Positions 58,763 to 64,000 of a stretch of 64,000 nucleotides of DNA are shown here, piece by piece. Source of the DNA: Corynebacterium lowii. GTDB taxonomy: Bacteria; Actinomycetota; Actinomycetes; Mycobacteriales; Mycobacteriaceae. The stretch covers positions 310,001 through 374,000 of the forward strand of contig NZ_LKEV01000001.1 of assembly GCF_001412085.1 (NCBI RefSeq). Reading direction: 5' to 3'. The notes below the pieces were generated by a model, which was given only the letters and a program-made list of their open reading frames with translations, was not told the DNA's origin and did no database searches. The first letter of the stretch is position 1. Each line of letters starts with the position of its first letter. The position numbers and the translations under genes were made by a program.

Positions 58763-59791
58763 GTGCCCGCTACGCCGCCCGATCCCCAGAACTACCACCC
58801 GCAGGAGCCTTCGCGACGCCCCCGCCGCCTGCGCTCCACCCCCGCCATGCGGGAACTCGTGGCGGAAACCGCGCTGCGCCCGGCTGATTTAATTCTGCCG
58901 ATGTTTATAGCCGATGGGATCACCGAACCCCGCGAGATTAATTCCATGCCGGGGGTGTACCAGCACACCACGGATTCCCTGCTGCGTGCCGCCCACGAGG
59001 CACTGGACGCCGGGGTGCGCTGCGTGGACCTCTTTGGGGTGCCGCTCCCGGAGGATAAGGACGCCACGGGTTCTGCGGCCTGGAACCCAGAGGGCGTGCT
59101 CAACCGAGGCGTGCAGGCCTTAAGAGCGGAGTTTGGCGATGATCTGCTGGTGATGGCCGATACCTGCCTGGACGAGTTCACCGATCACGGCCACTGCGGG
59201 GTGCTCAGAACTGACCGCCACGGGGCCACCATCGTGGATAACGATGCCACCCTGCCGTGCTATCAGGCGATGGCGGTGGCCCAGGCTCAGGCGGGAGCCC
59301 ACATCGTGAGCCCTTCGGGCATGATGGATGGGCAGATCGCTGCGATCCGCGAGGCCCTGGATGAGGGCGGCTATCAGGACGTAGCAATCATGGCTTACTC
59401 GGCCAAGTATGCCTCCGCCTTCTTTGGTCCCTTCCGGGAGGCTGTGGGGTCCTCCCTCAACGGTGATCGCCGGGCCTACCAGCAAGACCCCGCCAATGCG
59501 CGGGAATCGCTCTTGGAGGTGGAACTCGACATCGCGGAGGGGGCGGACTTCGTGATGGTCAAGCCCGCCCTGCCCTACCTGGATATTCTGCACCGAGTGG
59601 CGCAGACCTCCCCGGTGCCGGTGGCCGCCTATCAGGTTTCCGGGGAATATGCGATGATTCAGGCCGCAGGGCAGCGCGGCTGGGTAGATGGGCAGCAGGT
59701 GATGATGGAATCGTTGCTTTCCATCAAACGCGCCGGGGCGAATCAGATTCTCACCTACTTTGCCACCGAGGCCGCGCGACTTCTGCGCTGA
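58763..59791 (+). CDS. hemB: Delta-aminolevulinic acid dehydratase (porphobilinogen synthase)
   Basis: 342 residues. Schiff-base lysines are in MAYSAKYAS (about 211-219) and [10 protein letters not shown] (about 260-269). The metal site reads [14 protein letters not shown] (about 132-145), keeping two of the three Cys of zinc enzymes with Asp for the middle one, a mixed Zn/Mg-type site. GTG 58763 has GGAAGG 6 nt upstream. Normally it directly follows hemD; here the orphan insertion intervenes. Confidence 0.96.
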
Positions 59792-59837: not shown

Positions 59838-60395
59838 GTGAACGAGCAAGAAAAGAACGCAGCCGCAACTAAACCCGGTCAAGGCTCCGCGCCCGAAAGC
59901 GTGATGCTTCTGGCCCGCGTGTGGGGTTTGGTGCTGCTGGCGGACGTCCTGCACGAGGTGGTCTCCGTTGTGATGACGCTCATGGATACCGGCCCACTGA
60001 AGGCCGCCGCCCGCGAGATGGCGGAAAACCAAGGCGGCGGAGTGGAACTTTCCGATTCCATGCTGGATGCGGTGGCGTATCTGGGGGTGGGCTTTTCCTT
60101 CTTGATCGCTCTGGGTGTGGTGGGCCTGCTGTGGTGGATGCTCACCCTGCTACGCAAGGGGCATAAGTGGGCTCCTGTGGCGCGCCGAATCACCATGATC
60201 TTCGCCTTCTACTTCGTGGTGCGCGCCGTGGCGGTGTTCTCCCTGGTTCCGGGCAGCACGGCGGTGCCGATGGCGTTTTATGCTATCGACGGCTCCCTAC
60301 AGATACTCGCCGGAGTGGGTGCGGTGGTGACCCTGGTATTTGTATTCCGCCGCGAAACCCTCGTGTGGACGGGGGAAGTGAAGAAGGCCGAGTAG
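59838..60395 (+). CDS. Membrane protein downstream of hemB
   Basis: 185 residues with four hydrophobic segments (about 25-45, 75-98, 112-133 and 143-166) and hydrophilic ends. GTG 59838 has AGAAGGAA before it. A membrane protein at this place is usual in corynebacterial hem clusters. No enzyme motif is seen. It converges on the MFS gene with a 47-nt gap. Confidence 0.8.
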   Translation: MNEQEKNAAATKPGQGSAPESVMLLARVWGLVLLADVLHEVVSVVMTLMDTGPLKAAAREMAENQGGGVELSDSMLDAVAYLGVGFSFLIALGVVGLLWWMLTLLRKGHKWAPVARRITMIFAFYFVVRAVAVFSLVPGSTAVPMAFYAIDGSLQILAGVGAVVTLVFVFRRETLVWTGEVKKAE

Positions 60396-60442: not shown

Positions 60443-61714
60443 TCAGGCGCCCTGGCGAGCAAGCCTGGAAAAGATCACCAGGGCACCGGCCACCGCGCAG
60501 GAGGCGGCGAGGAAGAGCAGGGAAACCACCTGCACCGCACTGAGATAGCGCAGGAGCAGCGCCGCCACCGCGAGGGTGAGAAAGGCGGAGAGCCGCGATA
60601 TAGAAGAACTCAGCGAGGTGAGCGCGCTGATATTTTCCGGGGAGACGTGCTTGCGGTAGGAAAAGTTGGAGTGGTTCACCAGCACCCAGAACACCGCCAC
60701 GAAGAAGATATAGGGGGCTAGGGAGAGCACGCCCTCTAGCCGGCTAAAAAGCAAGATCGCCAGGCCGAAAATGGGAATGAGCGCCAGGGATAAGGTACGC
60801 AGCCGCCGGATGGAGAGGTTGTGGGTGGGAATCTGGCTCACAGCAATGCCTGTTATCTGGAAGAGCACGTAGAAGATCACCAGGCGCTCGGCGGGAGAGC
60901 CCTTTTCTAGGAAGAAGGCCTGCCAGAGCTGGAAGTGGGCCTGAAAGAAGATCTGCCCGGCGATGGAGAGCACCATGAAAACCTGCAACTCGCCGCTGCC
61001 GAGTAGTTCGGCCCAGCTGTGCTTGATTTGCCCCATGAGGGAGGAACCGCGCTGGTGGCCCGTTTCCGCGCTGGAATCAAGGTGGAAGTATCGCAGCACC
61101 GCCAGCACGGCGAGAAGAACAAGCCCAATGGAGATGAGATAGGGCGAGTATCCAAACTGGAAGTAGAACCAGGAGCCGATGATGCTGGCGGCCAGCATGG
61201 CGGCGAGGGATACCTGGTTATCACGGCGCACCAGGAGGGATATGCGCGCTTCTTTATTCCCGCTATCCCCGTCCGCGCGCTTGATAGCATTGATGACGTC
61301 ATTATCAATGGTGCCCGATTCCAAGGCGGAGGCCACGCCATAGAGCATCCAGGCCACGCACATAAGCAGGAAGCCCTGGCCCAGAATGGCGACGGCAAAG
61401 AAAGCCAGCAGAACCACCTTTGACCAGAGGAAAAGGCGCTTCCTATCCATGCGGTCCGCGAGGATACCGCTGGGATATTCGGTGAGGATAATGCTCAGGC
61501 TGTACAGGGCGTGGACGAGGGCGATCTGGGTGAGCGAGAGCCCCTTATCCAGCAGCAGGGGCGTGAGAATCGCGTGGGGGAGGGCCAGGGCGGCGCTGAT
61601 GAGGGCCTTGCTGAGGAGGAAGGTGGTGATAGACCTGCGCAGCGGGCCGGGGGGAAAGAGAAAAAGAAGAAATGGAGCATCACCGCCCTGCTTCAGAATG
61701 TATGCCTCATACAT
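60443..61714 (-). CDS. MFS transporter
   Basis: 423 residues, about twelve hydrophobic segments. The MFS loop GILADRMDRKRLFLWSK is at about 65-81. It resembles drug/multidrug MFS carriers of the YxxX type with the start at FLLSKALISAALALPHA. ATG 61714 is chosen because upstream residues are not MFS-like. Its gene interrupts the usual hemB-to-hemE order, as does the divergent gene at 61779. Cargo not predictable. Confidence 0.82.
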   Translation of the reverse strand: MYEAYILKQGGDAPFLLFLFPPGPLRRSITTFLLSKALISAALALPHAILTPLLLDKGLSLTQIALVHALYSLSIILTEYPSGILADRMDRKRLFLWSKVVLLAFFAVAILGQGFLLMCVAWMLYGVASALESGTIDNDVINAIKRADGDSGNKEARISLLVRRDNQVSLAAMLAASIIGSWFYFQFGYSPYLISIGLVLLAVLAVLRYFHLDSSAETGHQRGSSLMGQIKHSWAELLGSGELQVFMVLSIAGQIFFQAHFQLWQAFFLEKGSPAERLVIFYVLFQITGIAVSQIPTHNLSIRRLRTLSLALIPIFGLAILLFSRLEGVLSLAPYIFFVAVFWVLVNHSNFSYRKHVSPENISALTSLSSSISRLSAFLTLAVAALLLRYLSAVQVVSLLFLAASCAVAGALVIFSRLARQGA

Positions 61715-61778
61715 GGTTTGGTGAATTATCTTTGCACACCACGGCGCTCGTCCCACCCCATCGGTAGGATCACCAGAC

Positions 61779-62192
61779 ATGTCCGCCGATTCTTCTTCCC
61801 AGGTTCCTGGTGCCCTCCGCGTGGCCTACTGGCTCTCCGTGGCGGGGGCCGTGCTCATGCTGCTTTCCGCCTTCATCGCGCTCAGCGATATTTCCCAGGC
61901 CACGGAGGGCAGCGTGCGGGTGAACCTCGGGGTGGTTGGCGGCACGAACCTGGTGGCGGGGGTACTGGTGGCGTCGTTCGCGGCTCACCTGTCCAAACCC
62001 GGAAAGCCGGGGCTGCGCGCTCGTCGCATAGTGGCAGCGGCGATCACTGCGAGCATTGCGGTGAGCGTGCTGGGGCTGATAACGCAGGCGGTGGGGGTGG
62101 CGATCTTGCTTCACGTTATTGTCCTGGCCTTCGCCGCCTTGGCGATGTTCCGCCCTGCCGCCAGTGATTTTTTGCGGGGCATATCGGAGTAG
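61779..62192 (+). CDS. Four-helix membrane protein
   Basis: 137 residues with four hydrophobic segments (about 15-37, 48-68, 85-105 and 108-127) and a short N-terminal Ser-rich part. TAGGAT at 61765-61770 lies 8 nt before ATG 61779 (leaderless). It is followed 36 nt later by the P-type-ATPase-like gene and may share its transcript. It is similar in layout to the 59838 protein. Function unknown. Confidence 0.78.
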   Translation: MSADSSSQVPGALRVAYWLSVAGAVLMLLSAFIALSDISQATEGSVRVNLGVVGGTNLVAGVLVASFAAHLSKPGKPGLRARRIVAAAITASIAVSVLGLITQAVGVAILLHVIVLAFAALAMFRPAASDFLRGISE

Positions 62193-62228
62193 GGTGCTCT
62201 GGTGAAATACGGAGAAAGGCGGGCAAGG

Positions 62229-64000
62229 ATGGCTGACCAAGTAGCTCAGGCAATTAGCCAGGCCAAGGCGGCCGCTGCGGAGGCGGGCTTTGGCGATCCT
62301 CAAGCCCTGGGGGAGTCCGGGCGCAAGACCTCGCTCACTTTTGAATTGCAGGGGCTTAACGACGCCCCGGAGATCGCGCAGATCGAGCGGGAGCTAGAGG
62401 AGATACCGGGGGTTCACGCCAGGATTGTGTACCACTCCGCTACGGCATGGGTGACGGCTCCGGAGGGGTTGATGCCCAACCTCGTGGTGGAGGTATTTGA
62501 GCGTTTTGATGTTCGGGCGGTGCTCACCGACGATGCCCTGCGCCGTCAGAGCCTGTACCGCTCGGAGGGCGGCGATCCGTTCTCGATGCCGCCTCGGCGG
62601 CGTCGTGGCGGCAAGCAGGAGCGACGCCGGGCCGAGGTGGAGTTGCGCTCCCTGGAACGCGCCCGGGCGGAGGGATTCTTTCGTTCGGAATCCGCGTGGT
62701 TGACCCCGGAGGCCGGCGCACAGGCCAGGCGGCAGCGCAGCGAGGGCGATGTGCTCTACACCGCCCGCGATCTCATCACCACCCCGAGGTTGATTCTGGC
62801 CTTATTGCTCACCGTTCCGGTGGTGATTCTCAGTTATTTCTCCCAGGCGCAATTTTCCGGCTGGCAGTGGGTGTGCGCGCTGCTTTCCCTTCCGGTGGTC
62901 ACCTGGTGTGCCTGGCCCTTCCACCGGGCCTTGGCGGGCGGGGTGCGTCGCGGCGCCGTGGCTCTCGACGGCGCGAGTTCCATCGCCATCGTGGGGGCCT
63001 TCGTGTGGTCGCTGGGCACGCTGTTATTTACCGAGGTGGGAACGCTCGGCTGGCGGGGTACGCCAGATGTATTCGCCTTCACCGCGCAGCGCTTTAACCA
63101 GGAAGAACTGTTCTTTGACGTGGCCTGCGGTACCACCTTGCTGCTTCTCGGTGGGCGCAAGCTCTCTATTCAGGCGCGTTCCTCCCTCCTCGATGATCTC
63201 GCCGCGCAGCGGATTGATCCGCAGTCGATGGTGACGCTCGTGAGCCACAATCGCGTCACCGGGCAGCCGGTGGCCGAGGAGGTGCCGGTGAGCGAGATCA
63301 ATGTGGGCGATGATGTGGTGATTCAACCCGGCCAGCGCATCCCGGTCGATGGGGTGGTCATCGGCGGCAGCGGCACCGTGCGGCCCGGCGTGGTGGAAAC
63401 GGTATTGCCGCGTTCGGGCGGAGTGGTGCCGGTGGAGGTGGATTCCCCGGTGCGCGCCGGGTCCATCAACACCGGGCAGCGGATCAAGGTGCGGGTGCAG
63501 CGCACCGGGCACCGCACCCGCATCGCGGGAGTGGAGCGCTGGGTTTCGGGGGTCAATGCCCTGCAAAACACGGCGGTGATGCTCTCCACCCGCAGCGCGC
63601 GCATGCTCATCCCCGCGGCGTTGATCGTGGCGGGAATGAGCTTTGCCGGGTGGGCGCTGGCCACGGGTAACCCGGCGTTGGCCTTTGGCACGGCCTTGGC
63701 GGTGCTGGCCTGCGTGGCCCCGGCGGCGCTGGCGCTCTCCTCGGCGCTGGCGCTGCGCCTGGGCGTGGAGACGGCGGCACGGCACGGAATGTTGCTGCGG
63801 GAGGGGGCCGTGATGCGCCGCCTTCAGGGCGTGGACACGGTGATCTTTAATCGCGTGGGCGCGCTCTCGCACTCGGATATGACGGTGGAGACGGTCACCG
63901 CTGACCTCGGTGAGAATCCCGATTTGGTGCTGCGCGTGGCGGCGGCGCTGTGCCTGGAATCCGATCACACGGCCTCCCGCGCCATCGTGCACGCCGCGCG
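62229..64000 (+). CDS. P-type ATPase homologue lacking all catalytic motifs (3' end outside window)
   Basis: 590 codons are open to the window edge. The layout is that of a heavy-metal P-type ATPase: an N-terminal HMA-like fold (about 32-100), membrane helices from about 180, an actuator domain (about 345-430), a long helix pair (about 460-515), then the start of the catalytic domain. Yet the family motifs are replaced: HMA CxxC is absent (GLNDAP), TGE is LPRSGG (393-398), CPC is CVAPAA (495-500), and the phosphorylation site DKTGT is NRVGA with Asn541. ATG 62229 is chosen; GTG 62202, 6 nt after TAGGGT, is in frame. It should be a non-pumping pseudoenzyme. Confidence 0.85.
   Translation, partial: MADQVAQAISQAKAAAAEAGFGDPQALGESGRKTSLTFELQGLNDAPEIAQIERELEEIPGVHARIVYHSATAWVTAPEGLMPNLVVEVFERFDVRAVLTDDALRRQSLYRSEGGDPFSMPPRRRRGGKQERRRAEVELRSLERARAEGFFRSESAWLTPEAGAQARRQRSEGDVLYTARDLITTPRLILALLLTVPVVILSYFSQAQFSGWQWVCALLSLPVVTWCAWPFHRALAGGVRRGAVALDGASSIAIVGAFVWSLGTLLFTEVGTLGWRGTPDVFAFTAQRFNQEELFFDVACGTTLLLLGGRKLSIQARSSLLDDLAAQRIDPQSMVTLVSHNRVTGQPVAEEVPVSEINVGDDVVIQPGQRIPVDGVVIGGSGTVRPGVVETVLPRSGGVVPVEVDSPVRAGSINTGQRIKVRVQRTGHRTRIAGVERWVSGVNALQNTAVMLSTRSARMLIPAALIVAGMSFAGWALATGNPALAFGTALAVLACVAPAALALSSALALRLGVETAARHGMLLREGAVMRRLQGVDTVIFNRVGALSHSDMTVETVTADLGENPDLVLRVAAALCLESDHTASRAIVHAA

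Follow-up and report, generated by a model that had tools for sequence, protein, structure and literature searches.

The phosphoenzyme cycle of P-type ATPases depends on an acceptor Asp, on the TGE motif and on the Asn-Asp of GDGxND, and active members of the class are marked by a phosphorylated Asp in DKTGT, a TGE loop and a GDGxND hinge. Functionally uncharacterised P-type ATPase (FUPA) families are a recognised bin in the Saier classification, and pseudoenzymes are familiar from kinases and other enzymes. Here we describe a gene, to which we give the working name psATP (for pseudo-P1B-ATPase), that lies at the end of a 64,000-nucleotide stretch of the Corynebacterium lowii genome (contig NZ_LKEV01000001.1, positions 310,001 to 374,000; hereafter the window), beside genes that read as haem biosynthesis genes. 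The first 590 of its 864 codons occupy 62229..64000 on the plus strand, and residues are numbered from the ATG at 62229. The closest described systems are the CopA-type Cu+-exporting P1B ATPases (3rfu, 3j09, 7r0g), which psATP resembles from its predicted first two membrane helices to its last helix and with which it shares an HMA-like N-terminal domain. Unlike these pumps, it lacks CxxC, TGE, CPC, the Asp of DKTGT and GDGxND, and across its family TGD reads TRD, SRD or ARD. The same classes of change are present in the ATP7B mutant C983S/C985S/D1027A (7xun, 7xuk), which was made in the laboratory, whereas in psATP they are natural, fixed across the genus and accompanied by new conserved Arg residues. 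Judged from its sequence and that of its relatives, the psATP product is very probably a pseudoenzyme and, if this reading is true, represents a naturally evolved, lineage-wide pseudo-P-type ATPase.

A preliminary description of the window had reported that four hallmarks of metal P-type ATPases are missing from this protein, and each of these losses was confirmed. The HMA-like N-terminal domain (residues ~35-105; 62331..62543, plus strand), which is predicted to follow the strand-helix-strand-strand-helix-strand order, is without CxxC. On reading the sequence, LPRSGG (residues 393-398; 63405..63422, plus strand) was found to replace the TGE actuator loop and CVAPAA (residues 495-500; 63711..63728, plus strand) the CPC membrane metal site, and NRVGALS (63849..63869, plus strand) stands where DKTGTLT is expected, with Asn541, encoded by AAT at 63849-63851, followed by Arg542. 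Two more catalytic losses lie beyond the end of the window, where TGD has become TRD and GDGxND has become GDSSVSE. The same genome also encodes a full CopA (L006:5190-7748) that carries TGES, CPC, DKTGT and GDGMND.

Homologues were then aligned as 168 non-redundant members, made up of 120 database proteins and 48 sequences from 78 loci (the remainder being duplicates; the motif filter used in picking frames removed 0 of the 78 loci), together with the genome's own CopA and 11 other canonical pumps as references. The preliminary description had named homologues with DKTGT in most species as evidence against its reading, and this check came out in its favour: the column of the catalytic Asp holds Asn in 167 of the 168 members and His in the remaining one (P0117), and the residue that follows, Lys in DKTGT, is Arg in all 168. 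A second protein search brought 38 more members (P0121-P0158), and in the 158 proteins combined Asn was found in 157 (156 by pattern and P0140 by alignment), with His in P0117; P0158 is a partial record without the TRD region. The Gly of TGD is replaced by Arg in 168/168 members, and both its Asp and a Tyr two residues later are present in every one of them. Within GDGxND the first Asp is kept in 159/168, and neither the Asn nor the second Asp occurs at its aligned column in any member (0/168 each). An aligned Thr-Gly-Glu was likewise absent (0/168), with a TGE string somewhere within the loop region in 4/168. The Pro of the CPC site is retained throughout (168/168), and Cys stands at neither position in 167/168; P0113, the sole exception, has Cys at the first CPC position. 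No member has Cys at the two aligned CxxC columns (0/168; L031 has a CxxC elsewhere ahead of the membrane part), the Pfam family PF00403 (HMA) matched 0 of 33 members at E ≤ 0.01, and a profile alignment of the HMA-like domain to the AfCopA metal-binding domain scored 5.8 bits, which is not significant by itself. Other pump residues are retained, among them Lys734 (168/168) and His580 (149/168), and so are the YN and MxxSS motifs of the last two helices, with Tyr822 in 168/168, Asn823 in 163/168 and Met844 in 161/168; of the MxxSS serines the second (Ser848) is present in 145/168 and the first, which is Ala in the window copy, in 117/168. Residues specific to the family and conserved in at least 95% of members include Arg106, Arg180, Arg241, Cys300, Lys420, Trp438, Arg510, Asn541 and Arg542, and further Arg675, Arg707, Tyr710, Arg714, Arg739 and Glu852. 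Sharing of substitutions on this scale is far beyond chance. The CA that replaces the GG kink before PF was considered as a further family mark and rejected, since CAWPF also occurs in actinobacterial pumps.

A frame open for 590 codons had been given for psATP; its openness holds, and the figure covers the part inside the window alone, the full gene running to genome position C1:374823 with 864 codons from the ATG (a start that agrees with the database protein P0001) or 873 from an alternative GTG at 62202, and with no internal stop. The preliminary description had named stop codons downstream of the window as evidence that would speak against its reading, and none occurs in the window's own copy up to C1:374823. 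The ratio of non-synonymous to synonymous changes (dN/dS) was determined pairwise by the Nei-Gojobori method with our own script, the pairs sharing species and hence being non-independent, and came to 0.028-0.207 for psATP (11 pairs), next to 0.029-0.212 for hemE (8 pairs), 0.045-0.223 for hemC (10), 0.017-0.199 for hemB (11), 0.198-0.255 for hemY (6) and 0.072-0.454 for the neighbouring gene mem185 (10). With 864 open codons and these dN/dS values, the signs of a decaying pseudogene, namely stops, frameshifts and relaxed selection, were not found. One in-frame stop was noted in nine rows among the matches listed, and in the four of these that were read (L030, L034, L221, L223) the gene simply ends there, as it naturally would. 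Sequencing error or decay as the source of the substitutions was ruled out by their genus-wide conservation together with the low dN/dS. Conservation is unevenly spread: none of the 22 columns of the actuator loop at residues 381-402, the former TGE site, reaches 95%, as do 14 of 105 in the whole A domain, 6 of 30 and 23 of 103 in parts of the P domain and 23 of 112 in the N domain. The site of dephosphorylation thus drifts and the former site of phosphorylation is frozen in a new form, which argues for an altered function rather than none. Selection for an intact, non-hydrolysing protein, as first suggested from the window, is strongly backed by the conserved substitutions, the low dN/dS and a complete predicted fold.

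The predicted fold is of the P1B type, with two extra N-terminal helices plus six and with A, P and N domains, and the AlphaFold model matched 7r0g with 25% identity over 625 aligned residues at a root-mean-square deviation of 3.1. The marks of an active P-type ATPase (the phosphorylated Asp in DKTGT, the TGE loop and the GDGxND hinge) are each absent, as are those of the P1B class, namely the CPx metal site in the fourth core helix, the CxxC of the HMA domain and a score above the NCBIfam TIGR01525 cut-off. This cut-off of 346.25 bits was missed by all three members scored (253.2, 299.3 and 305.2 bits), and the genome's own CopA reached 590.4. The psATP protein therefore fails the defining tests of P1B ATPases except for the fold and some membrane residues.

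To define the distribution of the family, 242 Corynebacterium genomes were searched with three candidates scored per genome, and by score psATP is present in 185 and absent from 57. A further profile search of the 58 genomes with a weak best match, or with a split one in the case of G190, found psATP in G190 only, where it is split over two frames in a fragmented, low-quality assembly. The best-match locus in psATP-free genomes carries DKTGT in 29 of the 29 read (out of the 57), and in 20 of 20 such genomes, chosen by eye for diversity from the 57, hemC, hemD, hemB, hemE and hemY follow in order without psATP. A HemC+HemD+HemB tree was built from 80 of 82 genomes (two were excluded for short data) with no outgroup. 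On it the presence and absence of psATP requires at least four changes, three of them forced by well-supported branches, and the 20 psATP-free genomes fall as 15 in one clade, three in another and two alone. The simplest reading of this tree, which is without an outgroup, is an ancestral psATP with several losses.

Outside the genus, no full-length psATP was found in 249 genomes of the order, with three candidates again scored per genome; full-length matches came only from the window genome and two other Corynebacterium, none of the remaining matches listed begins before query residue 163, and DKTGT is present in all seven of them that were fetched. Of 24 genomes of other genera, three gave no match and 21 did, and none of the matches listed starts before profile position 183. 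A pattern-limited scan gave 80 loci, of which 21, all Corynebacterium, have Asn-Arg, 58 have DKTGT and one is an unreadable fragment (L116), and in a protein search a wide step in score separates the last psATP (579 bits, a partial record) from the first canonical pump (321 bits). An origin of psATP outside the genus was rejected, as no psATP turned up beyond Corynebacterium in these searches. P0061 carries the label Staphylococcus chromogenes, but with 49% identity to the window protein it probably comes from a Corynebacterium under the wrong name. When 63 P-type proteins were placed on a quick tree, the 20 psATP sequences grouped together with a support of 100, and their stem is 2.38 changes per column long; the clade appears to join among CopA-type pumps of other Actinomycetota, at a point that is uncertain because the stem is long. 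The record P0121 (103 member sequences) is 99% identical to the L223 copy and clusters with the proteins of C. deserti (82%) and C. callunae (78%), from which we infer, without proof, that it is the C. glutamicum protein; if it is, the role of psATP could be tested in a standard laboratory strain.

With Asp, GDGxND and TGE lost, the known mechanism offers the protein no way through the phosphoenzyme cycle, and the exchange of Asp-Lys for Asn-Arg likely means that no phosphoenzyme is formed and nothing is pumped. Formation of the aspartyl-phosphate would be impossible with neither the Asp nor GDGxND in place, as would TGE-driven dephosphorylation, so that the Post-Albers cycle would be broken and the protein would rest in an E1-like, inward state. 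The former active-site region may form a putative anion pocket from Arg542, Arg675, Arg707, Arg714 and Arg739, all of which are invariant or nearly so, together with Asp708 and Lys734. The Arg that replaces the glycine of TGD presumably sits near the position of the ATP phosphates in active pumps, and for this reason we propose a pocket that either is occupied by the protein's own side chains, which would lock the domains, or takes up an anionic ligand, for example a nucleotide or a porphyrin(ogen); the locus makes porphyrin(ogen) carboxylates attractive, and the ancestry nucleotides. As for the locus, each of the 62 psATP loci compared has hemB upstream of psATP and in the same orientation (at a gap of 534-4873 bp; some of these loci are closely related), and hemE lies downstream within 902 bp in 33 of the 62, some of the remaining stretches being too short. 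Given that the head domains and the new Arg-rich set of residues are under selection and fixed beside hemB, a scaffold or sensor seems the most plausible role, one that would gather or tune the membrane-side enzymes of the haem pathway at the membrane; in some species genes for cytochrome c maturation follow nearby. That psATP is a haem-linked membrane scaffold or sensor has, in our estimate, about an even chance. A fuller version can be offered only tentatively: that a whole P-type pump lost hydrolysis on a single occasion, at the base of Corynebacterium, and became a pseudoenzyme whose Asn-Arg/Arg-Asp anion pocket would sense a ligand of the haem pathway (porphyrin carboxylates or a nucleotide) and organise haem synthesis and delivery at the membrane.

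Several observations weigh against this reading. Of the 57 psATP-free genomes, 54 are at least 90% complete, and as the hem cluster is kept in the 20 of them that were inspected, the gene is not generally essential to haem synthesis, nor does every species need it. The haem-linked membrane factor of the preliminary description stands as far as genetic linkage goes, which is synteny alone, and synteny differs from function; a haem function is plausible but unproven. No association was found with haem uptake of the HtaA type, the PF04213 family being present in 27 of the 57 psATP-free genomes and in 89 of the 185 that carry the gene, and a link to haem scavenging was rejected on these counts. 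The E1-like state is read from a single AlphaFold model of each protein, made at unequal alignment depth (120 and 45 rows), and the control model likewise matches 7r0g best. The copper-path residues Tyr822, Asn823 and Met844 are kept, as they need not be in a presumed pure scaffold, and Asp occupies the Asn column of GDGxND in 26/168 members.

These kept membrane residues are part of the case for a rival view, that psATP works as a transporter or channel, either passive or gated by a ligand, in which the membrane part would conduct metal, porphyrin or haem and the dead cytosolic head would act as a gate. The P1B membrane helices are retained in the model, Pro498 and Ser848 are conserved besides the copper-path residues, and Cys300 (99%) and Glu852 (97%) fall in the predicted helices 296-315 and 837-860, which we take as membrane helices; yet both Cys of the CPC site are missing in all members but one, and we know of no P-type protein that normally works in this way, and we regard such a transporter as unlikely. 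That the family seems to branch among actinobacterial CopA-like pumps, in a genome that encodes a full CopA, could instead suit a regulatory partner that pairs with canonical CopA in the membrane and tunes the copper supply, for instance to cytochrome aa3. Its neighbours in the compared loci are haem genes and not copper genes, however, and DKTGT pumps occur without psATP in the 29 psATP-free genomes read, which leaves this partnership rather improbable. A slowly dying, functionless relic kept in the operon by chance would accord with the gains or losses on the tree and with the G190 copy in two frames, but is strongly disfavoured, to the point of being very improbable, by the low dN/dS and the near-invariance of the substituted site across the genus. 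We give equally little credence to a pump still driven by ATP through other residues for phosphoryl transfer. In its favour are Asp708 (168/168), the retained Lys734, the first Asp of GDGxND, the occasional Asp at the Asn column, His580 of SEHP and the second Gly of the N-domain GxG (133/168, in a gappy stretch); against it, the first Gly of GxG is mostly lost (kept in 10/168), and what defines the mechanism is gone from every member, namely the acceptor Asp, the aligned TGE and, within GDGxND, both the Asn and the second Asp. A pseudoenzyme acting as a scaffold or sensor beside the haem genes is the reading that we prefer.

Searches of the open-access literature turned up neither a pseudo-P-type ATPase family nor a lineage that stayed intact without the phosphorylated Asp, nor any account of the psATP gene itself, for which the C. 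glutamicum locus tags searched were conjectural. Where names are given in databases, members are mostly called heavy metal or copper-exporting P-type ATPase, and also cation transport ATPase or HAD family hydrolase. Since psATP is filed as a metal pump, genome-based inferences of metal resistance in Corynebacterium may be counting a protein that likely does not pump.

The genetic context of psATP in the window genome is hemC, hemD, orf114, hemB, mem185, an MFS-like transporter gene, mem137, psATP, hemE, hemY and urease genes, where the haem, MFS and urease names are readings of the sequences. The hemB gene (58763..59791, plus strand) is followed by mem185 (59838..60395, plus strand), which encodes a small membrane protein and was not assigned to a family, by the MFS-like gene on the opposite strand (60443-61780, minus strand), for which no match was found in the loci of three close relatives (L037, L038 and L039), and by mem137 (61779..62192, plus strand), another small membrane protein gene that ends 36 bp ahead of the psATP ATG; hemE starts 15 bp after the end of psATP. 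Neither mem185 nor mem137 matched a Pfam or NCBIfam family above cut-off; at least one of the two was detectable with the window sequences in 45 of the 62 psATP loci and 18 of the 20 psATP-free loci. A PADLOC scan gave no match. The downstream neighbour hemE is a target in the HrrSA-controlled haem and cytochrome network of C. glutamicum, where HrrA is described as binding near the hemE start and repressing the gene (PMC7337898), so that hemE probably has its own promoter in that species; the word ATPase does not occur in the main text of that paper. Downstream of psATP in L047 and L048 come genes that read as hemL, resA or ccdA, and resB, with hemE and hemY not found within ~6 kb, and haem and cytochrome c maturation genes there form one cluster around psATP.
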